This document shows, piece by piece, positions 1,758-10,794 of a DNA stretch of 10,794 nt. The stretch spans positions 1-10,794 of the forward strand of contig JAITVR010000207.1 of assembly GCA_031285695.1 (NCBI GenBank), read 5' to 3'. The position numbers were made by a program, and so were the translations under genes. How positions within the stretch are numbered: the first letter of the stretch is position 1; each line of letters opens with the position of its first letter. The notes under the pieces were generated by a model, which saw only the letters and a list, made by a program, of their open reading frames with translations, was not told the origin of the DNA and ran no database searches. This stretch comes from Prevotellaceae bacterium. Its GTDB lineage: Bacteria > Bacteroidota > Bacteroidia > Bacteroidales > UBA932.

Positions 1758-3266
1758 TTACTGCAACGCCTTGCTCAGCATATAGTACACCTCGTTTATG
1801 CGAATGTCTTTTTTGAAGCTGTCAATCGTTGTGTTTTCGTCAATGGTCAGCATTTCGATGCCGGCAATTTCGGCGTAATCCTGCCAGTATTCAACGGTCA
1901 AATCATACGAAAATGCCGAGTGGTGCGTACCGCCGCCGATAATCCACGCGCCTGCGCCCACCTCGAAGTTGGGGCGCGGAATCCACAACGCCGAAGCTAC
2001 CGGAAGCTTCGGCAGCGGCTTGCTTTTTATGCAATCTACCTTGTTAACAATTAGGCGAAAACGGTTGCCCATATCCACCACAGTTGAAGCCACGCCTTCG
2101 CCCTGCTTTGAGGTAAACACCAAGCGAGCGGGAGGATTTTTTCCGCCAATGCCCAGCTTGTGCACCTCCAACTTTGGCTTGTGCTCAGCAATCATGGGCG
2201 AAACTTCGAGCATGTGTGCCTGAAGAATTGCGCTGTTTGCACCGTCGAAATTCAGCGTATAATCCTCCAAAAACGAGCAGCCCTTGGGCAAACCCTGACC
2301 CATCACGTACATGGTGCGGGCAAGCGCAGCCGTTTTCCAATCGCCTTCGGCGCCGAAGCCGTAGCCCTCGGCCATCAAGCGTTGGCAGGCCAAGCCGGGC
2401 AGCTGGTCAATGCCGTCCAAGTTATCGAAGTGCGTGGTGAATGCCTTTGCGCCGGTTTCCTTCAGCAAGCGGCGAAGCGCAATTTCAATGCGCGCAGCTT
2501 TTACCACCTGTTCATATTCTGCCGAGCCATCTTTAATTGCGCTGCAATCGTACTCCTTTTTGTAAACGTCAACCAGCTCCTTGATTTGCGCATCGGTAAC
2601 ATCGTTTTGGTAGTCGCGCACCTTGGCAATGTTGCAAAAATCCACGTGGTAGCCCAAGCACATTTCGGCCTCCACCTTGTCGCCATCGGTAACGGCAACG
2701 TTGTTCATTTGGTCGCCAAGGCGAATGAGCAGCATGTCCTGCGCATCGGCCCAGCCTGCGCAAACGCGCTGCCATACGGCAATTTTTTCCTGCGTCTTCG
2801 GGTCTTGCCAATGCCCAACAACTACTTTACAAGCCTTACGCATGCGCGAAACAATGTGCCCAAATTCGCGGTCGCCGTGCGCAGATTGGTTGAGGTTCAT
2901 AAAGTCCATATCCATGGTGTCCCAAGGAATTTCTTTGTTGAACTGCGTGTGGAAGTGCAGCAATGGTTTTTTCAATTGCTGCAATCCGTGAATCCACATT
3001 TTGGCGGGCGAAAAAGTGTGCATCCACGTCATTACGCCAATGCATTTTGCCTCATTGTTCGCGGCTTTCATTGTGGCGGTAACCTCTGCCGATGAGTTTA
3101 CAGTTCCTTTGTACACAACTTTTACGGGCAGTTTTCCCGAGTCGTTGAGCCCCTTTACCATTTCGTTGGAATGAGCATCAACGTGCTTTACCGCATCGCC
3201 GCCGTACAGCAGCTGCGCACCGGTTACAAACCAAATTTCGTGAGCGTTAAAATCAAAGTTTAGCAT
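1758..3266 (-). CDS. araA: L-arabinose isomerase
   Basis: Cytoplasmic, metal-dependent isomerase converting L-arabinose to L-ribulose, the first step of the isomerase pathway. The 502-residue product matches the usual AraA length of about 500. It opens with the typical EIWFVTGAQLLYG (10-22). The expected catalytic and metal ligands are all present: Glu307 in FGAEGDW, Glu334 in SFLEDYTLNF, His351 in QAHMLEV and His448/His449 in GGTHHSAFS. The ATG at 3266 is the only sensible start, since it gives the standard AraA N-terminus and lies about 40 bp below a good promoter. It is the first gene of the araA-araB unit. No frame disruption or truncation is seen. The substrate is inferred from the family and from the adjacent ribulokinase. 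Confidence 0.97.
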   Translation of the reverse strand: MLNFDFNAHEIWFVTGAQLLYGGDAVKHVDAHSNEMVKGLNDSGKLPVKVVYKGTVNSSAEVTATMKAANNEAKCIGVMTWMHTFSPAKMWIHGLQQLKKPLLHFHTQFNKEIPWDTMDMDFMNLNQSAHGDREFGHIVSRMRKACKVVVGHWQDPKTQEKIAVWQRVCAGWADAQDMLLIRLGDQMNNVAVTDGDKVEAEMCLGYHVDFCNIAKVRDYQNDVTDAQIKELVDVYKKEYDCSAIKDGSAEYEQVVKAARIEIALRRLLKETGAKAFTTHFDNLDGIDQLPGLACQRLMAEGYGFGAEGDWKTAALARTMYVMGQGLPKGCSFLEDYTLNFDGANSAILQAHMLEVSPMIAEHKPKLEVHKLGIGGKNPPARLVFTSKQGEGVASTVVDMGNRFRLIVNKVDCIKSKPLPKLPVASALWIPRPNFEVGAGAWIIGGGTHHSAFSYDLTVEYWQDYAEIAGIEMLTIDENTTIDSFKKDIRINEVYYMLSKALQ

Positions 3267-3313
3267 AGCAATTTGTAATTTTTGATTGATTATTTATGAT
3301 TTAGTCTATCATG

Positions 3314-3344
3314 TAAAGGTAGGAATTTTTCGGCGTTTTTCAAA
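3314..3344 (-). promoter_or_regulatory. Bacteroidota-type promoter of araA-araB
   Basis: On the minus strand the -33 element TTTG (3344-3341) is followed after 19 bp by TACCTTTA (3321-3314), seven of eight matches to TAnnTTTG. Transcription would start near 3308, giving a leader of about 40 nt. The assignment rests on the Bacteroidota consensus and position only. Confidence 0.65.
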
Positions 3345-3368
3345 AGTGCAAAAAGTTGCAAAAACGCC
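3332..3368. promoter_or_regulatory. Candidate operator upstream of araA (inverted repeat)
   Basis: GGCGTTTTT at 3332-3340 and its exact reverse complement AAAAACGCC at 3360-3368 flank 19 bp that contain the predicted -33 element. A direct repeat TGCAAAAA lies at 3347-3354 and 3357-3364, one helical turn apart. The position suits a regulator acting on the ara promoter. No known operator motif was recognised, and the A/T-rich composition makes chance similarity possible. Confidence 0.3.
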
Positions 3369-3396
3369 ACACAAAACTAAGTTCAGCATAATATAC

Positions 3397-4230
3397 CTAC
3401 GATTTCAACCTCTTTTGCTGCTTTGCAGGCGGCAAAAAGTTTTCTTCGGTAATAACTGATTTTCCTGTTTCCGCCTCAAGTTCCTTACGGGCATTTTTTG
3501 CTACTGCACCACCTCGCTTGCCAGCCACTGCATTTTCCGTAAATCCTTTTGCCCGTTCACTTTCAGCAATTTGTCGCGTAGAAAGTTCAGCCAGTGCCGT
3601 AAAAATTAGCTCCGCTTCGCTCATGTGGTCGCGCAGGTTTTGTGTCTTTAAGTTTTTCAGATTTTTGTGCGCCTTTACGGTTAAGCCCGTCCATTCTTGA
3701 TGAATAATATTGGTCAGCGCAGCAAATTCGTCTTGCTCCTTAACGCCGGATTCTTTCCAATAATCGGTCAACTTGTTGCGAGTTTCCTGCCCGGTCATTC
3801 GCTGCTGAATCCACTTTTCGCTTCGTCCAAGCTTCTGCCAATTTTCGCGCGCACGGTTGAGGCTGTACTCGGGGTCGGTGGTTTCTTGAATGCGCTCGTA
3901 GCCCACCTTTGCTAGCCACTGCTTAAACGGCTCAGCCTTAGGCGATGGAATAGACTGAATGATGCGCAAAAGACTGCGGACATTGGCGCAATCGGTATCT
4001 CGTTTTTTTCCGTCAGGGGCAACCAATTTCAACTGTCGACAAATTGTCGACAGTTCAATTCCGTCTTCAAGCGTGACGCGCTGCTTCATTTTAAACCAGT
4101 AGTCGCGGGGGTTGCTGCTATCGGTTAAAATTTCAACCACATCTATTACCGAAAAATACCACTCTTCGGTGGCTTCGTCCCAGTGGGCACGAACTTTTTT
4201 TTCTTCAAAAAGTTTTACTGCAGTTTCCAT
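3397..4230 (-). CDS. Bro-N domain protein with DinD-like C-terminal part
   Basis: The 277-residue product is soluble, with no signal peptide or membrane segment. Residues about 1-125 resemble the Bro-N domain found in phage antirepressor-type and baculovirus Bro proteins: WYFSVIDVVEILTDSSNPRDYW near 23-45, then the common stretch IIQSIPSPKAEPFKQWLAKVGYERI. The C-terminal half (NLRDHMSEAELIFTALAE, then AKGF and a Gly/Ala/Lys-rich tail) resembles the E. coli DinD group, which has nearly the same length. Bro-N domains are linked to DNA binding; E. coli DinD is an SOS-induced protein reported to affect RecA, but transferring that role is inference. It stands alone between the ara and trp operons with its own weak upstream signals, and may be of phage or mobile origin. 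I do not know its target. The domain call is from remembered sequence patterns. Confidence 0.75.
   Translation of the reverse strand: METAVKLFEEKKVRAHWDEATEEWYFSVIDVVEILTDSSNPRDYWFKMKQRVTLEDGIELSTICRQLKLVAPDGKKRDTDCANVRSLLRIIQSIPSPKAEPFKQWLAKVGYERIQETTDPEYSLNRARENWQKLGRSEKWIQQRMTGQETRNKLTDYWKESGVKEQDEFAALTNIIHQEWTGLTVKAHKNLKNLKTQNLRDHMSEAELIFTALAELSTRQIAESERAKGFTENAVAGKRGGAVAKNARKELEAETGKSVITEENFLPPAKQQKRLKS
4031..4055. repeat. 25-bp near-perfect palindrome inside the Bro-N gene
   Basis: Two exact 12-bp arms, AACTGTCGACAA (4031-4042) and TTGTCGACAGTT (4044-4055), are separated by one base. One mismatch further out the pairing resumes for two more base pairs. Each arm contains GTCGAC. The sequence stays in frame and encodes the ELSTICRQL segment of the protein. 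It could form a stable mRNA hairpin, a cruciform or a dimeric protein-binding site. Confidence 0.7.
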
Positions 4231-4350: not shown

Positions 4351-5130
4351 TCAACCTAAAATCCCAATATCCGCCAGCAACTTATCCACCGCCTGTTCTA
4401 CGCTTGCGCTATCGCCAAGCGCCTTGACCAATGCGCTGCCAATGATGGCGCCGCGCGAAAAACGGCAGGCGCTATCGAAGGTTTCTTTATTGGAAATACC
4501 AAAGCCGACTAAGGTCGGATTTTTCAGCTTCATGTCCTGTATTCGCTTAAAATATTTTTCCTTTTCTTCGGAAAAAGAGCTTTGCATGCCGGTGGTGGAG
4601 GCCGACGAAACCATGTAGATAAATCCGTTGCTGTGCTCATCGATAAGGCGAATGCGCTCATCAGGCGTTTCGGGCGTAATGAGCAGAATATTTTCCAATC
4701 CGTAGCGCCGGGCTATGGGCTGAAAGTCGCGCAGGTATTCGCTCATAGGCAAGTCGGGGACAATAAATCCATCGATGCCTACGGACTGCGCTTGCCTGCA
4801 AAACTCCTCAAATCCGAGCTGCAAAATGGGGTTGATGTAGCCCATCAAAATAAGCGGAATGTTGGTAATTTTCCGCACGTTTTTGAGCTGCTCAAAAAGC
4901 AGGCGTTGCGTCATGCCGTTTTGCAGCGCCACTCGGCTGCTGTTTTGTATTACGGGGCCGTCGGCAAGAAGGTCGGAAAAGGGAATGCCGATTTCAATCA
5001 TGTCAACGCCCTTGTTCGATAGCTGGCGAATGACTTCCTCCGTGCTGCTCAGCTGCGGATAGCCGGCCGTGAAGTACACCGAAAGAATGCTGCTGCTCTT
5101 GGCCGCAAAAAGTTCATTAATTCTGTTCAT
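4351..5130 (-). CDS. trpA: Tryptophan synthase alpha subunit
   Basis: Cleaves indole-3-glycerol phosphate to indole and glyceraldehyde 3-phosphate; indole is channelled to TrpB in the alpha2-beta2 complex. The 259-residue TIM-barrel protein has the usual length. The catalytic pair is present: Glu46 in MIEIGIPFSD and Asp57 in LLADGPVIQ (E. coli Glu49 and Asp60). The loop VSSASTTGM (near 173-181) supplies the loop-6 Thr, and GFGIS and GAIIGSALVK form the phosphate site. Oddly, the conserved PFSDPLADGP reads PFSDLLADGP: Leu54 replaces the interface proline (E. coli Pro57). It is the last gene of the operon, and its ATG overlaps the end of trpF by 14 bp, which suggests translational coupling. A terminator follows immediately. 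Confidence 0.97.
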   Translation of the reverse strand: MNRINELFAAKSSSILSVYFTAGYPQLSSTEEVIRQLSNKGVDMIEIGIPFSDLLADGPVIQNSSRVALQNGMTQRLLFEQLKNVRKITNIPLILMGYINPILQLGFEEFCRQAQSVGIDGFIVPDLPMSEYLRDFQPIARRYGLENILLITPETPDERIRLIDEHSNGFIYMVSSASTTGMQSSFSEEKEKYFKRIQDMKLKNPTLVGFGISNKETFDSACRFSRGAIIGSALVKALGDSASVEQAVDKLLADIGILG

Positions 5131-5764
5131 GATAGTTTAATTTTTCTATAAATTGCTTTACTTTTTCTACATTTTTTGCTCCTGCCGTAAGCTCAAATCG
5201 GCTGTTGATGTCCACCGCCCACAGCTGCGGGTGCGCTAGCTGCGCAATGGCGACAGCATCGCTCAAGTCGATACCGCCGCTCAAAAAGAAGGGTGTTGTG
5301 CCCCGATAATTTTCGAGCAGCAGCCAATCAAATTTTGCTCCGGAGCCGCCATGCTGCTGCGTTTTTGTGTCGAACAGAAAGAAATCGCAGCAGCCGCTAT
5401 ACGGCTGCGCGGCTTCAAAATCCTGCGCTTCGGAAATAGAAAATGCTTTGATTACCGTAAAATCCTTGCGCAAAATGCTGCACTGCGCAGGCGTTTCGTT
5501 GCCGTGCAGCTGCAAGGTGGTAATGCCGTATTTGTTGGCAATTTCGCGCATTTTTTCCTCCGATTCGTTGACAAACACCGCAACCTTTTCAACAGCTGAG
5601 AATGAAAAGTTGAGCATTGAGTGCGAAAAATCGGGGTTGCGCAGCGCATATCGGGGCGATTTTTCGTAAAAAATAAAACCCATGTAGTCGGGTTGCAAAG
5701 CCGCAACCTCGTTGATATTTTGCGCATCGCGCATGCCGCAAACTTTTACTTTTAAGCTGCTCAT
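5117..5764 (-). CDS. trpF: Phosphoribosylanthranilate isomerase
   Basis: Catalyses the Amadori rearrangement of phosphoribosylanthranilate to CdRP, the third step of the tryptophan branch. The 215-residue single-domain TIM barrel has the expected length. The general base is Cys9 (KVKVCGM) and the general acid is Asp132 (FFLFDTKT). LQLHGNE (85-91), FFLSGGI and AVDINSRFE mark the remaining strands and phosphate site. It is a stand-alone enzyme here rather than the TrpC-TrpF fusion of enteric bacteria. Its ATG overlaps the trpC stop in a 4-bp ATGA junction and its own end overlaps trpA, so translation of C, F and A is probably coupled. Confidence 0.95.
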   Translation of the reverse strand: MSSLKVKVCGMRDAQNINEVAALQPDYMGFIFYEKSPRYALRNPDFSHSMLNFSFSAVEKVAVFVNESEEKMREIANKYGITTLQLHGNETPAQCSILRKDFTVIKAFSISEAQDFEAAQPYSGCCDFFLFDTKTQQHGGSGAKFDWLLLENYRGTTPFFLSGGIDLSDAVAIAQLAHPQLWAVDINSRFELTAGAKNVEKVKQFIEKLNYHEQN

Positions 5765-6543
5765 TTTACTTGCCCAATAAAGTTGCTCAGCGCTTGCGCC
5801 GGATTTTTTTCCTTCATAAAATTTTCGCCCATCAAAAAGCCCTGAAATCCTGCACGGCGCAGCTCAAGCACCGTTTGCGGCTGCGAAATTCCGCTCTCGC
5901 TTACCTTTACAAAATCGGCGGGAATTTTGTCGGCTAAGTCGAACGAAATTTGCACGTCGGTAGTGAAGGTTTTTAGGTTGCGGTTGTTCACGCCGAGCAT
6001 GTCCACAAACTCGTTGGCATGCGCCAGCTCCTCCTCGCTATGCACCTCAAGCAGCACCTCCAAACCCAGCTCGTGCGCCTTGCTGGCAAAGGCTTTGGTT
6101 TCTTTTACCGAAAGCGCGGCGGCAATGAGCAGCACCAAGTCGGCGCCCATTGCTTTTGCTTCATAAATTTGATATTCGTCCACCGTAAAATCTTTGCGCA
6201 AAATGGGGCAAGCAACCTGTGGGCGCGCAGCGATTAAATCGTTGGGCGTGCCGCCAAAATATTTTTCGTCTGTCAAAATGGAAATGCCGCTTGCGCCGGC
6301 AGCGCTGTAGCCCGCAGTAACGGAAGGCAAATCGGCATTGGCGTGAATCCAACCCTTGGAGGGCGACTTGCGCTTGAACTCGGCAATAATGCCGGACTGC
6401 GACTGCCGCAAGCTGCTTTTTAGCGAAAGCGTTTTTCGCTCAAAATTACTTTCCTTGGTCAGCTGCGCTATGGTGCGCACAGCTTTGCGCTGCGCCACTT
6501 CTACCCGCTTATCGGCTACTATTTTTTCTAAAATATTATTCAT
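5761..6543 (-). CDS. trpC: Indole-3-glycerol phosphate synthase
   Basis: Closes the indole ring, converting CdRP to indole-3-glycerol phosphate with loss of CO2 and water. It is a 260-residue TIM barrel. The catalytic set is intact: Glu55 and Lys57 in IIAEFKRKSPSKG, the TDEKYFGG loop (91-98), Lys117 in ILRKDFTVDEYQIYEA, Glu166 in LLEVHSEEEL, Asn187 in LGVNNRNL and Glu216-Ser217 in VSESGI. The ATG at 6543 gives the typical N-terminus ILEKIVADKRVEV. It follows trpD after 64 bp of repeat-rich spacer, the longest gap within the operon, and shares an ATGA junction with trpF. Confidence 0.97.
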   Translation of the reverse strand: MNNILEKIVADKRVEVAQRKAVRTIAQLTKESNFERKTLSLKSSLRQSQSGIIAEFKRKSPSKGWIHANADLPSVTAGYSAAGASGISILTDEKYFGGTPNDLIAARPQVACPILRKDFTVDEYQIYEAKAMGADLVLLIAAALSVKETKAFASKAHELGLEVLLEVHSEEELAHANEFVDMLGVNNRNLKTFTTDVQISFDLADKIPADFVKVSESGISQPQTVLELRRAGFQGFLMGENFMKEKNPAQALSNFIGQVK

Positions 6544-6607: not shown

Positions 6608-7594
6608 TTAAATGCAGCCACTGCTCAAAGGCTTTTTTGCGCTGCCCGAATCAATGGATTTTTCGGCCATCGCCTTGCACTCGTCGAAGCTGCAATTGGG
6701 GCGAATGTTTTGTATGGCAAGGGCAGCGTTGGCAAGCACCACCGATTTTTGCGCAGCGGTGGCGGTATTGCTCAGCACACGAACAAAAATATCCGCCGCA
6801 TGGGCTACGGTGCTGCCGCCGCTCAGCTGCTCGCTTTGCAAGGTTTCAAAGCCCATTTCGTGCGGCGAAATGATGTACTCCTTCGTGTTGGAAATAATTT
6901 TTGCGTCAGCCGTCAGCGACACCTCATCGTAGCCGTCGAGGCTGTGCACAAGCGTGTACTGCGTGCCCATTTGCTGGTTAATGTAGTTGTATAAGCGCAG
7001 CATGCGCAGGCTGTACACGCCCAGCAGCTGGTACTTGGGCTGCGCGGGGTTGGTAAGCGGCCCGAGCACGTTGAAAAAGGTGCGAACGCCCACCGCCTTG
7101 CGCACGGACACAACGTTTTTCATGGCAGGGTTGAATAGCGGAGCGTGCAAAAAAGCAAAGCCCGTTTCCTCAATCGAACGGCGAATGCGCGAGGCATCGG
7201 CGGTGAACTTTGCCCCGAAATACTCCAGCGCATTCGAGGCGCCGCTTACCGAGGTTGCTCCGTAGTTGCCGTGCTTTACCACCTTGTATCCCGCGCCAGC
7301 AAGCACAAATCCGCTTAGGGTAGATATGTTGAAGGTGTTTTTGCCATCGCCGCCCGTGCCCACAATATCGGTGGCCTCGTACTCGCTTAAATCAATTCGT
7401 AATGATTTGATTAGCAACGAGTTACGAAATCCGAGCAGCTCCTCCAGGGTGATTGGGCGCATGAGGTACACAGTTATAAAGGAGGCTATTTGCTCGCTGT
7501 TGTACTTTGCTTCGGCAATGTTGGTCAGCACCTCCTCTGCTTCTTTCTGCCCCAAGCTTTCGTGGTCAAATAGTCGAGTTAATATTTGCTTCAT
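6608..7594 (-). CDS. trpD: Anthranilate phosphoribosyltransferase
   Basis: Transfers phosphoribose from PRPP to anthranilate, the second step of the tryptophan branch. From the ATG at 7594 the product has 328 residues, normal for the stand-alone enzyme; there is no fused TrpG domain. The PRPP-binding GTGGDGKNTFNIS lies at 79-91, KHGNYGATSVSGASN at 107-121, and the anthranilate-contacting HAPLFNPAMKNVVSVRKAVGVRTFFN further on. I chose 7594 rather than an in-frame ATG at 7639 because MKQILTRLFDHESL is the usual TrpD beginning, is preceded by an A-rich leader, and avoids overlapping trpE. It follows trpE directly after 28 bp, where trpG would be expected. Confidence 0.96.
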   Translation of the reverse strand: MKQILTRLFDHESLGQKEAEEVLTNIAEAKYNSEQIASFITVYLMRPITLEELLGFRNSLLIKSLRIDLSEYEATDIVGTGGDGKNTFNISTLSGFVLAGAGYKVVKHGNYGATSVSGASNALEYFGAKFTADASRIRRSIEETGFAFLHAPLFNPAMKNVVSVRKAVGVRTFFNVLGPLTNPAQPKYQLLGVYSLRMLRLYNYINQQMGTQYTLVHSLDGYDEVSLTADAKIISNTKEYIISPHEMGFETLQSEQLSGGSTVAHAADIFVRVLSNTATAAQKSVVLANAALAIQNIRPNCSFDECKAMAEKSIDSGSAKKPLSSGCI

Positions 7595-7622
7595 TTTTTC
7601 ACTTTCTAAAATTAAAAATTGT

Positions 7623-9023
7623 TTAACACGCGCTATCAATGGCTTTTTTCAGCGCGCCAAGCTTGTTGTTGACTTCCTGCAGCTCGCTTGTCTCCACCGA
7701 CTGCGCCACTATTCCTGCTCCGGCTTGATAGTACAGCACGTTATTTTTGCTAAAAAACGAGCGAATGGTAATGGCTTGGTTAAAGCTTCTGTCAAAACCA
7801 ATGTAGCCAATGCAGCCTCCGTACACGCCGCGGTTATGGGTTTCTATTTCGTCAATGAGCCGCAAGGCTTTTACTTTGGGTGCACCCGATAGCGTTCCCG
7901 CAGGAAAGGTATCGGCAAGCAGTTTTATTGCGTTGGCATTTTCGGGCAGCTTACCGCTTACCACCGACACCAAGTGCAGCACGTGCGAGTAGTACTGTAC
8001 CGAGCGAAATGATTCTAACTTCACATCACGGGTATTGCGGCTAAGTTCTTGGAGCACCAAGTTAACCAACATCTCGTGTTCTGCATTTTCCTTAGGGTCG
8101 CGGCGTAGGGCTTCGGCAAGCTCGCGGTCTTTGTCGTCATTACCTGTGCGACGAAACGTACCTGCAATAGGTGTTATGTAGGCGCGACCGTCCTTTAGCT
8201 TGAGGTGCGCCTCGGGCGAGGAGCCAAAAATACGGAATGAGCCAAAGTCAAAGTAAAACAAGTACGGCGAAGGATTGATGGAGCGCAACGTGCGGTACAG
8301 CATAATATCGTCGCCATGGTAGGACTGCTTGAAGCGGCGCGACAGCACGATTTGCTGCACATCACCACAAAGACAGTGCCGCTTGCCGCGCGCCACCATT
8401 TGGAGAAAATCCTCATCGGTAATGTCGGACGATTCCTTGCCCACCTTGGTGAACGAGTACGAGCTGATGTTGGGGCTTGCCAAAATACTTTCGATGTCGT
8501 TTATTTTACTCTCCTCGCCTTCCGTTAGGTTTTCAGTAATGCTTATTTCGTTTTTAAACATGTTCATTGCAACAATGTACTTGTACAAAACGTACTGAAT
8601 TTCGGGGACATCGTTTTCCTCCATTTTAGGAGTGGTCAGCTCAACATCTTCAAAATACTTTACTGCATCGTACGAAGTGTAGCCAAAAAATCCGTTTGCG
8701 CCGACCTTTTTTTGCTCCGCAGAAATGCTAAAAGAATTAATAAATGCATTAAAAGAATCGGGTACGGTATTTTTATTTTCAACCTTTAGCTGCTCCTCCG
8801 TTCCATCGGGGTAGCGCATGGCAATTTCGTTATCCTTCACCTTGTACGAGGCAATGGGCGAAAAGGCAATGTAGGAGTTGCTGTTGGCTGCGGTATTGTA
8901 GTCCGAGCTTTCGAGCAGCACCGAATTTTCGTACAAATCGCGCACCTTAAGGTAAATACCAATGGGCGTTTGCAGGTCGCCAAGCAAAGTTTTGGTGCGT
9001 ACGGTTAGCGTTGTTGTTTTCAT
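7623..9023 (-). CDS. trpE: Anthranilate synthase component I
   Basis: Chorismate-utilising subunit that makes anthranilate with ammonia supplied by a glutaminase partner. The 466-residue product has the expected length. The tryptophan feedback site looks intact: LLES at 36-39 and NPSPY at 250-254. Catalytic and metal residues are present: PIAGT (285-289), Glu312 and Glu315 in KENAEH, His350 in YSHVLHLVS, GTLSGAPK (376-383), Arg421 in ITIRS, QAGAGIVA (433-440), and Glu447/Glu450 before VNNK. Departures from the usual pattern are NLVLQEL at 321-327, where DLxRNDL is expected, and GDVQQ at 220-224, where GDxFQ is expected. It starts 12 bp after trpB. No trpG follows. Aminodeoxychorismate synthase (PabB) is the alternative, but the trp context and LLES site favour TrpE. 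Confidence 0.94.
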   Translation of the reverse strand: MKTTTLTVRTKTLLGDLQTPIGIYLKVRDLYENSVLLESSDYNTAANSNSYIAFSPIASYKVKDNEIAMRYPDGTEEQLKVENKNTVPDSFNAFINSFSISAEQKKVGANGFFGYTSYDAVKYFEDVELTTPKMEENDVPEIQYVLYKYIVAMNMFKNEISITENLTEGEESKINDIESILASPNISSYSFTKVGKESSDITDEDFLQMVARGKRHCLCGDVQQIVLSRRFKQSYHGDDIMLYRTLRSINPSPYLFYFDFGSFRIFGSSPEAHLKLKDGRAYITPIAGTFRRTGNDDKDRELAEALRRDPKENAEHEMLVNLVLQELSRNTRDVKLESFRSVQYYSHVLHLVSVVSGKLPENANAIKLLADTFPAGTLSGAPKVKALRLIDEIETHNRGVYGGCIGYIGFDRSFNQAITIRSFFSKNNVLYYQAGAGIVAQSVETSELQEVNNKLGALKKAIDSAC

Positions 9024-9035
9024 TTTATGTTACAA

Positions 9036-10220
9036 CTAAAATTTTTCAAAATGCTCTAAGTAGGTAGGCATATCCTTATCGCCACGCCCCGATACGGTGC
9101 ACACCACCACGTCGGTTGGCTTAAATTGCATTTTGTGCAGCGCCGCCAGCGCATGCGCACTTTCAATGGCGGGAATAATACCCTCCAGCTTTGTCAGCTC
9201 AAAGGCTGCCGCCAGCGCATCATCATCGGTAATAGGAATTACTTGTGCTCTACCGCTTTTTGCAAGGTGTGCGTGCAGCGGACCAATGCCCGGATAATCC
9301 AAGCCCGCCGAAATGGAGTAGGGCTCGATTACCTGCCCATCACTGGTTTGCATTACCAGCGTGCGGCTGCCGTGCAGCACGCCCTCGCTGCCCAAGTGAA
9401 TGGTGGCCGCCGACTCGCCGGAGTCAACGCCCAAGCCTGCCGCCTCGGCAGCAACAAGCTGCACGCGGTCATTATTCAAGTAGTGGTAAAAAGTTCCTGC
9501 GGCGTTGCTGCCGCCGCCCACGCAGGCCACCAAGTAGTCGGGGTAATTACGACCTTCGCTCTCCTGCAGCTGCGCCTGTATTTCCTCGCTGATGATGGAT
9601 TGCAGCCGCGCCACCATGTCGGGGTAAGGGTGCGCGCCCACCACCGAGCCGATGATGTAAAACGTGTCGGCAGGGTGGTTGCACCAGTCGCGAAAAGCCT
9701 CGTTGGTAGCGTCCTTCAGCGTTTTGTTGCCCGAGGTAACCGGCACCACCTTGGCACCCAGCATTTGCATTTTTTGCACGTTGAGGTGCTGCCGCTTTAC
9801 ATCGGTTTCGCCCATATACACCGTGCAATCCATGTTCATGAGCGCGCACACGGTGGCCGTAGCCACGCCGTGCTGCCCCGCGCCGGTTTCTGCCAAAATG
9901 CGGGTTTTGCCCATGCGCTTGGCCACCAGTATTTGCCCTATGCAGTTGGTTATTTTGTGCGAACCCGTGTGGTTCAAATCCTCGCGCTTGAGGTACACCC
10001 GTGCGCCCACCGCCTCGGACAGCCGCCCGGCAAGGTACAGCGGCGACGGGCGGCCAACGTAATCCTTCAGCAGCGCGTGGAACTCCTTTTGAAAACCCTC
10101 ATCGCCAATGATGGCTAAGTAATTTTTTTGCAGCAGCTCAAAATTCTTTTGCAAAATTTCGGGAATGTACGCGCCGCCAAACCTGCCGTAGTAGCCATTT
10201 TCGTCAATAGAAAAGCTCAT
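9036..10220 (-). CDS. trpB: Tryptophan synthase beta subunit
   Basis: PLP-dependent enzyme joining indole and L-serine to give L-tryptophan, partner of TrpA. The 394-residue product begins YYGRFGGAYIPE in the usual TrpB fashion. PLP Schiff-base Lys89 sits in HTGSHKITN, catalytic Glu111 in ETGAGQHGVATA, the phosphate-binding GGGSNA at 235-240, and the C-terminal SGRGDKDM near 380. It appears to be the standard trpA-partnered form (TrpB1). It is the first structural gene of the operon, 36 bp after the attenuator T-tract, and would therefore be the first cut off when attenuation occurs. Its leader is A/T-rich without a Shine-Dalgarno sequence. Confidence 0.97.
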   Translation of the reverse strand: MSFSIDENGYYGRFGGAYIPEILQKNFELLQKNYLAIIGDEGFQKEFHALLKDYVGRPSPLYLAGRLSEAVGARVYLKREDLNHTGSHKITNCIGQILVAKRMGKTRILAETGAGQHGVATATVCALMNMDCTVYMGETDVKRQHLNVQKMQMLGAKVVPVTSGNKTLKDATNEAFRDWCNHPADTFYIIGSVVGAHPYPDMVARLQSIISEEIQAQLQESEGRNYPDYLVACVGGGSNAAGTFYHYLNNDRVQLVAAEAAGLGVDSGESAATIHLGSEGVLHGSRTLVMQTSDGQVIEPYSISAGLDYPGIGPLHAHLAKSGRAQVIPITDDDALAAAFELTKLEGIIPAIESAHALAALHKMQFKPTDVVVCTVSGRGDKDMPTYLEHFEKF

Positions 10221-10253
10221 GATATTTTTATGTTTTTGTTTGATGTTGAAAAT

Positions 10254-10290
10254 AAAAAAAAGGCCTGTCGTGAGTTCGACAAGCCTTTTT
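10254..10290 (-). terminator. trp attenuator (intrinsic terminator in the leader)
   Basis: On the minus strand, AAAAAGGCTTGTCG (10290-10277) pairs with CGACAGGCCTTTTT (10270-10257) in a 14-bp stem with a single G-U, closing a 6-base loop, and ends in a T-rich run (10261-10254). It lies between the leader peptide and trpB, so if it forms it stops transcription before any structural gene. Bases 10275-10268 of its loop and 3' arm are also complementary to the leader-peptide region, giving a competing antiterminator. Confidence 0.9.
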
Positions 10291-10358
10291 GGTTTTATGA
10301 TTTTATTAGCCTTTACTTACACCAACGGCAACGCTACTCACGAACTTGATTTCGTAAG
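10268..10358 (-). promoter_or_regulatory. trp leader antiterminator and competing helices
   Basis: Three mutually exclusive pairings are visible on the minus-strand RNA. Segment 1, CTTACGAA (10358-10351), pairs with segment 2, TTCGTGAG (10344-10337), in an 8-bp hairpin. Segment 2 (as TCGTGAGT, 10343-10336) pairs instead with ACTCACGA (10275-10268) inside the terminator. The terminator is the third. Segment 1 begins three bases after the Trp codons, so a ribosome stalled there would mask it and free segment 2 to disrupt the terminator. The peptide stop codon lies in segment 2, so a ribosome that finishes the peptide would block antitermination. Confidence 0.8.
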
Positions 10359-10393
10359 CGCCACCAACCGTTGCTAAATAAAAACTTGCTCAT
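10334..10393 (-). CDS. trpL: trp operon leader peptide
   Basis: A 19-residue open frame, MSKFLFSNGWWRLRNQVRE, begins at the ATG at 10393, about 15 nt after the predicted transcription start, and ends with TAG at 10336-10334. Codons 10 and 11 (10366-10361) are adjacent Trp codons. It has no expected function as a peptide; its translation would sense charged tRNA-Trp and choose between the attenuator and the antiterminator. No Shine-Dalgarno sequence is present, as is usual in Bacteroidota. Evidence is the tandem Trp codons, position and fit to the RNA structure. A Bacteroidota trp-leader RNA class (Bacteroid-trp) has, to my memory, been described, and this may belong to it. Confidence 0.85.
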   Translation of the reverse strand: MSKFLFSNGWWRLRNQVRE

Positions 10394-10413
10394 TTCAGTG
10401 AAATTTTATGGTA

Positions 10414-10446
10414 CAAAGGTAAATAGTTTTTATTTGATTTTGCAAA
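10414..10446 (-). promoter_or_regulatory. trp operon promoter
   Basis: On the minus strand TTTG (10446-10443) is followed after 21 bp by TACCTTTG (10421-10414), a full match to the Bacteroidota -7 consensus TAnnTTTG. Transcription should begin near 10408, just before the leader peptide. No TrpR or TRAP site was recognised, consistent with control mainly by attenuation. Confidence 0.75.
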
Positions 10447-10464
10447 AAATCAGCAATATTTTTT

Positions 10465-10491
10465 AATCCTTAAATATATAAATCCTTAAAT
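10465..10491. repeat. Direct repeat in the trp/chrA divergent intergenic region
   Basis: AATCCTTAAAT occurs at 10465-10475 and again at 10481-10491, offset by 16 bp, in an A/T-rich stretch upstream of both divergent promoters. It could be a regulator site or simply A/T-rich sequence. No known motif is recognised. Confidence 0.3.
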
Positions 10492-10549
10492 GTCAAATAT
10501 TTAAAATTATCAAAAAACATAATTTTTATCATGCGTACGCCTTAATTAC

Positions 10550-10557
10550 TATCTTTG
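10550..10557 (+). promoter_or_regulatory. Putative promoter (-7 element) of the chrA-like gene
   Basis: TATCTTTG matches TAnnTTTG fully, 24 bp before the ATG. No clear TTTG is seen at the -33 position, only a T-run around 10523-10527. Transcription would start near 10563 with a leader of about 20 nt. Confidence 0.55.
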
Positions 10558-10581
10558 TCTTTCACAGATTATGCTCAAGGC

Positions 10582-10794
10582 ATGAAAATTTACTTCGACA
10601 TATTTTTTACCTTTCTCAAAATTGGTGCCTTTACGCTGGGCGGCGGATATGCTATGATTCCGCTGGTGGAGCGAGAGGTTGTTGACCGCAAAAAGTGGAT
10701 TGCGCGGCACGATTTTTTAGACCTGCTTGCCGTTACGCAGGCCATGCCGGGCGTCATTGCCATTAACATGGCGGTGTTTGTAGGCTACAAAATT
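10582..10794 (+). CDS. Chromate transporter (CHR/ChrA family), N-terminal part
   Basis: An inner-membrane ion transporter of the CHR family; members export chromate, though many are uncharacterised and the substrate here is unproven. Only the first 71 codons are in the window, open to the right edge. They show the conserved CHR start: FFTFLKIGAFTLGGGYAMIPLVEREVV (8-34), KKWI (37-40), then DLLAVTQAMPGVIAINMAVFVGYK (47-70) with the AVTQAMPG motif. An upstream ATG at 10571 reaches a stop after four codons, so 10582 is the start. It is divergent from the trp operon. In Bacteroidota these proteins are often short single-domain forms encoded in pairs; whether that holds here lies outside the window. 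Confidence 0.9.
   Translation, partial: MKIYFDIFFTFLKIGAFTLGGGYAMIPLVEREVVDRKKWIARHDFLDLLAVTQAMPGVIAINMAVFVGYKI

Follow-up and report, generated by a model that had tools for sequence, protein, structure and literature searches.

A probable tryptophan attenuator of the Bacteroid-trp family whose antiterminator appears to pair with the loop and 3′ arm of its terminator

In the enterobacterial leader trpL, tandem Trp codons are followed by a stop codon in segment 2, and the 1:2, antiterminator and terminator pairings are alternatives to one another. Capture of the 5′ arm of the terminator by segment 2 is a feature of the E. coli trp example and not of attenuation as such. The actinobacterial trp attenuators, as described in passages of Seliverstov et al. 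2005 (PMC1262725), have a leader peptide with a double or triple UGG and a terminator and antiterminator that are called classical; compared by that description, they show a different conserved pattern, gGCC-rGCy-GGCC. The family Bacteroid-trp (RF01692) is listed by Weinberg et al. 2010 (PMC2864571) in their table of motifs; the main text of PMC2965389 does not contain the word "bacteroid". Among the papers listed from open-licence literature, we found neither an antiterminator directed at the loop and 3′ arm nor a study of the leader described here. This leader, which lies in a stretch of 10,794 nt from a Prevotellaceae bacterium (the whole stretch is called the window below), is very probably a ribosome-mediated transcription attenuator of the Bacteroid-trp family that controls the operon trpBEDCFA, with tryptophan as the presumed signal.

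The leader is located directly upstream of trpB (9036..10220), the next gene after it and the first of an operon on the window's minus strand in the order trpB-trpE-trpD-trpC-trpF-trpA, with trpE at 7623-9023, trpD at 6608-7639, trpC at 5761-6543, trpF at 5117-5764 and trpA at 4351-5130. All leader features below are on the same strand. At 10414..10421 stands the promoter-like TACCTTTG, which we take to be a Bacteroidetes-type -7 element (consensus TAnnTTTG). Since a pattern scan found 11 copies of TANNTTTG in the window including this one, where 8.9 are expected, it proves nothing alone. The element that the original prediction placed here recurs, however, among the related leaders, of which 112 of 134 have TANNTTTG upstream and 91 of 134 a TTG 18-22 nt before it (near-identical leaders are included in both counts). 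The predicted 19-residue leader peptide is likewise present as an open reading frame at 10334..10393 that reads MSKFLFSNGWWRLRNQVRE and then stop, with its tandem Trp codons at 10366-10361 and the stop codon TAG at 10336-10334, at the end of segment 2 as had been proposed. No Shine-Dalgarno sequence lies upstream of the leader peptide in the window, again as predicted; such absence is common in Bacteroidota and need not imply a special device for synchronising ribosome and polymerase, a matter that the prediction had raised, and we see no need for one.

The long leader (1:2) hairpin occupies 10308..10386, as supported by the fold, a permutation test, stem counts and the RF01692 model. Its existence had been predicted correctly, its start and extent had not: its inner part starts with the final base of the second Trp codon rather than three bases after the Trp codons, and the whole is larger, with an inner stem of 11 bp and a one-base bulge (10361-10351/10344-10333) as well as outer stems (10386-10375/10319-10308 and 10373-10367/10329-10323). 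In this fold, most leader codons are within the outer stem, paired with downstream RNA, and the hairpin could act as a pause signal. The antiterminator strand is the core of segment 2, UCGUGAGU (10336..10343), and its target is ACUCACGA (10268..10275), which comprises the terminator loop and the first bases of the 3′ arm; the 8-bp pairing 10343-10336/10275-10268 is present at exactly the predicted coordinates. The intrinsic terminator (10257..10290) was also correctly foreseen, with 14 bp (10290-10277/10270-10257), a 6-nt loop (10276-10271) and a T-tract after it. A terminator scan of 10150-10600 returned two terminator-like sites (0.3 expected), both within this hairpin.

Of the two Rfam models proposed as a check, Bacteroid-trp matches the window over its full length (model positions 1-131, uncut, with several pairs non-standard in the alignment) at 43.7 bits and E 0.014, which is 5.3 bits below the cut-off of 49, and Trp_leader (RF00513), whose cut-off is 41, reaches 19.5 bits (E 4.3). 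Trp_leader, together with Thr_leader (23.2 of 55 bits) and the trpB motif RF04312 (24.4 of 59 bits), both also below cut-off, was taken as chance or shared terminator sequence. A whole-genome search with RF01692 gave two matches, the stronger being the window leader (E 4.4e-4); the other, weak one (L002, 26.8 bits, other strand of the window) was dropped. The most similar named trpB loci among the matches listed (L084, L085 and L086, with trpB 87, 85 and 80% identical to the window's) carry leaders above the RF01692 cut-off (54.2, 59.5 and 52.2 bits), and these align throughout with the window leader. Because they pass and align, we regard the window leader, whose own score falls short of the formal cut-off, as a divergent member of this known family and not as a new system. 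It shares with RF01692 the same hairpin, the Trp-codon leader, the place upstream of trp genes and the conserved AAAAAGGCUUGUC at the end of the model; trpB follows next, the Trp codons are in tandem (WW), and the titles of the relatives (best 80 named) are those of the Bacteroidota group. The RF01692 model ends in the 5′ arm of the terminator and shows no terminator or antiterminator pairing, whereas the window has both. Seven of ten loci scanned at the cut-off pass, including L084, L085 and L086, and L075, L027 and L048 fall short. Searches of larger genome sets used strict filters that lose weak matches: RF01692 was found in 23 of 60 genomes in the set of relatives (E ≤0.5; 3 above cut-off, window's genome counted), in 36 of 395 genomes drawn from the class (E 0.01; 17 above cut-off), and in 30 of 296 drawn from the phylum (E 0.001), all of the same class in a set whose class make-up is not listed. 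Three matches (L022, L023 and L025) without a WW leader by eye were dropped as chance.

For conservation of the Trp codons, we collected 110 trpB loci, 30 from 149 same-family genomes (window's included) and 80 that were the best named Bacteroidota records among the matches listed; L027 and L114, which are the same sequence, are both counted. A WW leader reading frame precedes trpB in 92 of these 110 loci; dinucleotide shuffles gave a mean of 0.5 among 109, and the reverse strand gave 1. It was not found in the other 18, in some of which the upstream region is coding or the contig ends too soon; in L045, L110 and L116, a single W or WRW takes the place of WW. One locus, L121, has a terminator of the family type upstream of trpB and no Trp leader reading frame that we could find, and is possibly a decayed attenuator. 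Pooling the trpB loci with leaders found by Rfam, many of them ahead of trpE or trpD, gave 134 leaders, after 12 of 51 Rfam loci had been left out (9 duplicates of trpB loci and 3 chance matches). Family f69 (L074, L075, L077, L078, L082 and L083) has its leader ahead of trpD, with trpF further down, and not ahead of trpE or trpB. At L170 (G041:C131:2800-3700, minus), two tandem Trp attenuators with leaders MNTNRLNNYWWWQFTYSFYREEGKLS and MNNSNLHIWWWHNSGIKP stand ahead of trpE, each with a terminator-like hairpin of its own and, as judged by eye, a matching segment 2. A terminator was detected in 133 of the pooled leaders (131 distinct sequences; L119 was excluded, as the scan gave no terminator), which reduced to 99 non-redundant leaders at <80% identity. 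Alignment A1 holds 73 of the 99 and omits those leading trpE or trpD as well as L016, L019, L045, L111, L139 and L162. Permutation tests of segment 2 and the stems used all 99 leaders, and the test of the bases after segment 2 used the 73; six further matches from the class (L164-L169) are outside the analysed set. All permutation and shuffle statistics given here leave shared ancestry in.

The leader alignment that had been proposed as a check also shows double changes above shuffles. In A1, the inner 1:2 stem, counted together with three outer pairs, has 48 double-change cells compared with 6.7 in shuffles, and the terminator 101 compared with 20.2. Among the 99 leaders, the outer stem pairs better with its own partner than with swapped ones (-13.1 vs -9.3 kcal/mol, 0/5000 permutations), and two control pairings from the region further upstream are unsupported (1540 and 4170 of 5000 permutations). 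In the antiterminator, 91.4% of cells are paired and 35 show double changes, as against 11.7 in shuffles (0/500 as high); two cruder ones among the five covariation measures fail to rise above shuffles, namely pairs with double changes (4 vs 2.8; 110/500 as high) and further pair types (10 vs 8.8; 114/500). Its clearest pair occurs as GC 46 times and as AU 25 times among the 73 leaders, of which 20 lack the pairing at its end (64-173). The second base of the leader stop codon is the 5′ base of this clearest pair in 49 of the 73, not including the window, where the stop is one codon later. Here stop codon and loop base agree in 48 of 49 leaders (UGA with loop C in 27, UAA with loop U in 21, UAA with C in 1). 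More generally, the stop codon overlaps or adjoins segment 2 in 77 of 99 leaders. At the same antiterminator place, L162 carries ACGUUGU with ACAACGU, a sequence quite unlike the rest. The leader thus combines regulatory codons with mutually exclusive 1:2, antiterminator and terminator pairings that covary (for the antiterminator, with two of five measures at the level of shuffles), so that the predicted ribosome-mediated attenuation is well supported. A constitutive promoter-proximal terminator with an incidental small reading frame, with control exerted elsewhere by a repressor or Rho, would leave both the tandem Trp codons kept in 92 of 110 loci (best 80 named included) and the three covarying pairings unaccounted for, and we give this explanation hardly any credence.

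What this analysis adds is a specific complementarity of segment 2 to the loop and descending (3′) arm of the terminator. In the 99 leaders, pairing of segment 2 with its own loop and 3′ arm has a mean of -10.93 kcal/mol, compared with -9.28 for swapped partners and -6.49 for shuffled segment 2, and the own value was reached by 0/10,000 permutations (shared ancestry not removed). With the 5′ arm, the own mean (-6.97) is no better than the swapped (-7.12) and close to the shuffled one (-6.84), with 7978/10,000 permutations as good. The window follows this pattern (-12.4 with loop and 3′ arm vs -6.7 with the 5′ arm), as do 87 of 99 leaders, in which the loop and the 3′ arm each take a mean of 4.1 antiterminator pairs. 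The antiterminator therefore seems, from these sequence comparisons, to grip the loop and 3′ arm of the terminator instead of the 5′ arm that E. coli trp uses, and the textbook geometry of the original prediction does not hold for the window; the observation itself is confirmed and its reading partly supported. Strict textbook geometry, with the 5′ arm sequestered by segment 2 or by the bases just after it, is what E. coli trpL shows (-10.9 with the 5′ arm vs -4.9 with loop and 3′ arm), and pheL (-16.0 vs -13.7) and thrL (-18.7 vs -11.4; its terminator was missed by the scan used for trpL and pheL) show the same preference. This E. coli control is partial, with three of five leaders informative: hisL favours loop and 3′ arm via a long bulged duplex that we do not trust, and for leuL we suspect that the scan picked the wrong hairpin. 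The 5′ arm is also favoured in 12 of our 99 leaders, sometimes narrowly; among these 12 are the four non-redundant members of f69 (L074, L075, L082 and L083), two of which have a strong pairing of segment 2 with the 5′ arm (-13.6), so that both topologies may exist within the class. Nascent folds often show a few pairs between the bases after segment 2 and the 5′ arm. As a second antiterminator helix, these were rejected, since the own helix score (9.73) is no better than swapped (10.03) or shuffled (10.46). Together with the lack of any advantage of the own 5′ arm over swapped ones, this makes the textbook geometry, as an account of these leaders, improbable in our estimate.

Attenuation might also work through a kissing or pseudoknot contact, in which segment 2 touches the terminator loop, leaves the stem intact and weakens or tunes termination. 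The 4.1 pairs in the loop are compatible with such a contact, and in L051, L052 and L054 nearly all of the partner is inside a 12-nt loop. An equal mean number of pairs is found in the 3′ arm, however, and 76 of the 87 leaders have at least 2 pairs on each side, which excludes the inner stem pairs; we consider this kind of contact rather unlikely. With little more than even confidence, we incline to the view that most Bacteroidota trp attenuators have a 1:2, 2:4, 3:4 topology in which segment 2 is a decoy of the 5′ arm, that in most aligned leaders, the window not among them, the stop codon (UGA or UAA) is built into the helix and covaries with the terminator loop, and that the topologies interconvert, one family having the 5′-arm form. 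Under this 2:4 topology, segment 2 would catch the loop and descending arm on their exit from the polymerase, so that the decision would come later and within a much shorter time than in E. coli.

On the proposed mechanism, when tryptophan is plentiful, the ribosome would pass the Trp codons, reach the stop codon and cover segment 2, so that the terminator forms. Without translation, the long 1:2 hairpin would lock segment 2, and the terminator would form as well. When Trp-tRNA is short, the ribosome would stall on the Trp codons and cover segment 1; the freed segment 2 could then pair with the emerging terminator loop and the start of the 3′ arm, for which it would compete with the 5′ arm, and the polymerase would continue into trpB. 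Read-through would in this way respond to charged tRNA-Trp. What the analysis shows is the anatomy, conservation and covariation described above and, when segment 1 is masked, a switch of the predicted nascent fold; that tryptophan is the signal, that termination takes place in cells, and in what sequence the events unfold, we infer. For this switch, nascent RNA was folded to six bases into the 3′ arm, either free from a point 40 bases upstream of where the Trp codons end (unmasked) or covered as far as six bases beyond these codons to mimic a stalled ribosome (masked), and an antiterminator was called at a probability >0.5. It was predicted in 6 of 99 leaders unmasked and in 83 of 99 masked, with probabilities of ~0 and 0.99 for the window. 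With the ribosome placed at the stop codon, it was predicted in 0 of 99, mostly by construction, since segment 2 is itself masked. Once the 3′ arm is complete, the terminator is predicted to win either way (mean probability 0.89 unmasked, 0.86 masked), and antitermination must therefore be kinetic. In 86 of 87 leaders, the antiterminator has the lowest energy of the predicted folds only while the 3′ arm is emerging, up to a median of 8 of its 15 bases; this lead is brief, and it is where the mechanism is weakest.

In a dominant gut phylum, tryptophan synthesis would here be controlled through an RNA that is already annotated. If capture of the loop and descending arm is true, it would amount to a tight kinetic test of ribosome-polymerase closeness, and this in bacteria thought to use Shine-Dalgarno signals little. 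Some further observations concern the genomic setting. In the window, trpE and trpD overlap (7610-7640) with no trpG between them, and CTP synthase is the sole GATase match in the window's genome (a 77%-complete assembly); in a relative (L174), a 189-aa reading frame of TrpG/PabA type (3207-3776) lies between trpE and trpD. Downstream of trpA, a Bro-N domain protein (3397-4230, minus) shows weak likeness to DNA damage-inducible protein D. A second promoter-like sequence, TATCTTTG (10550-10557, plus strand), stands just upstream of a divergent chromate-transporter gene.
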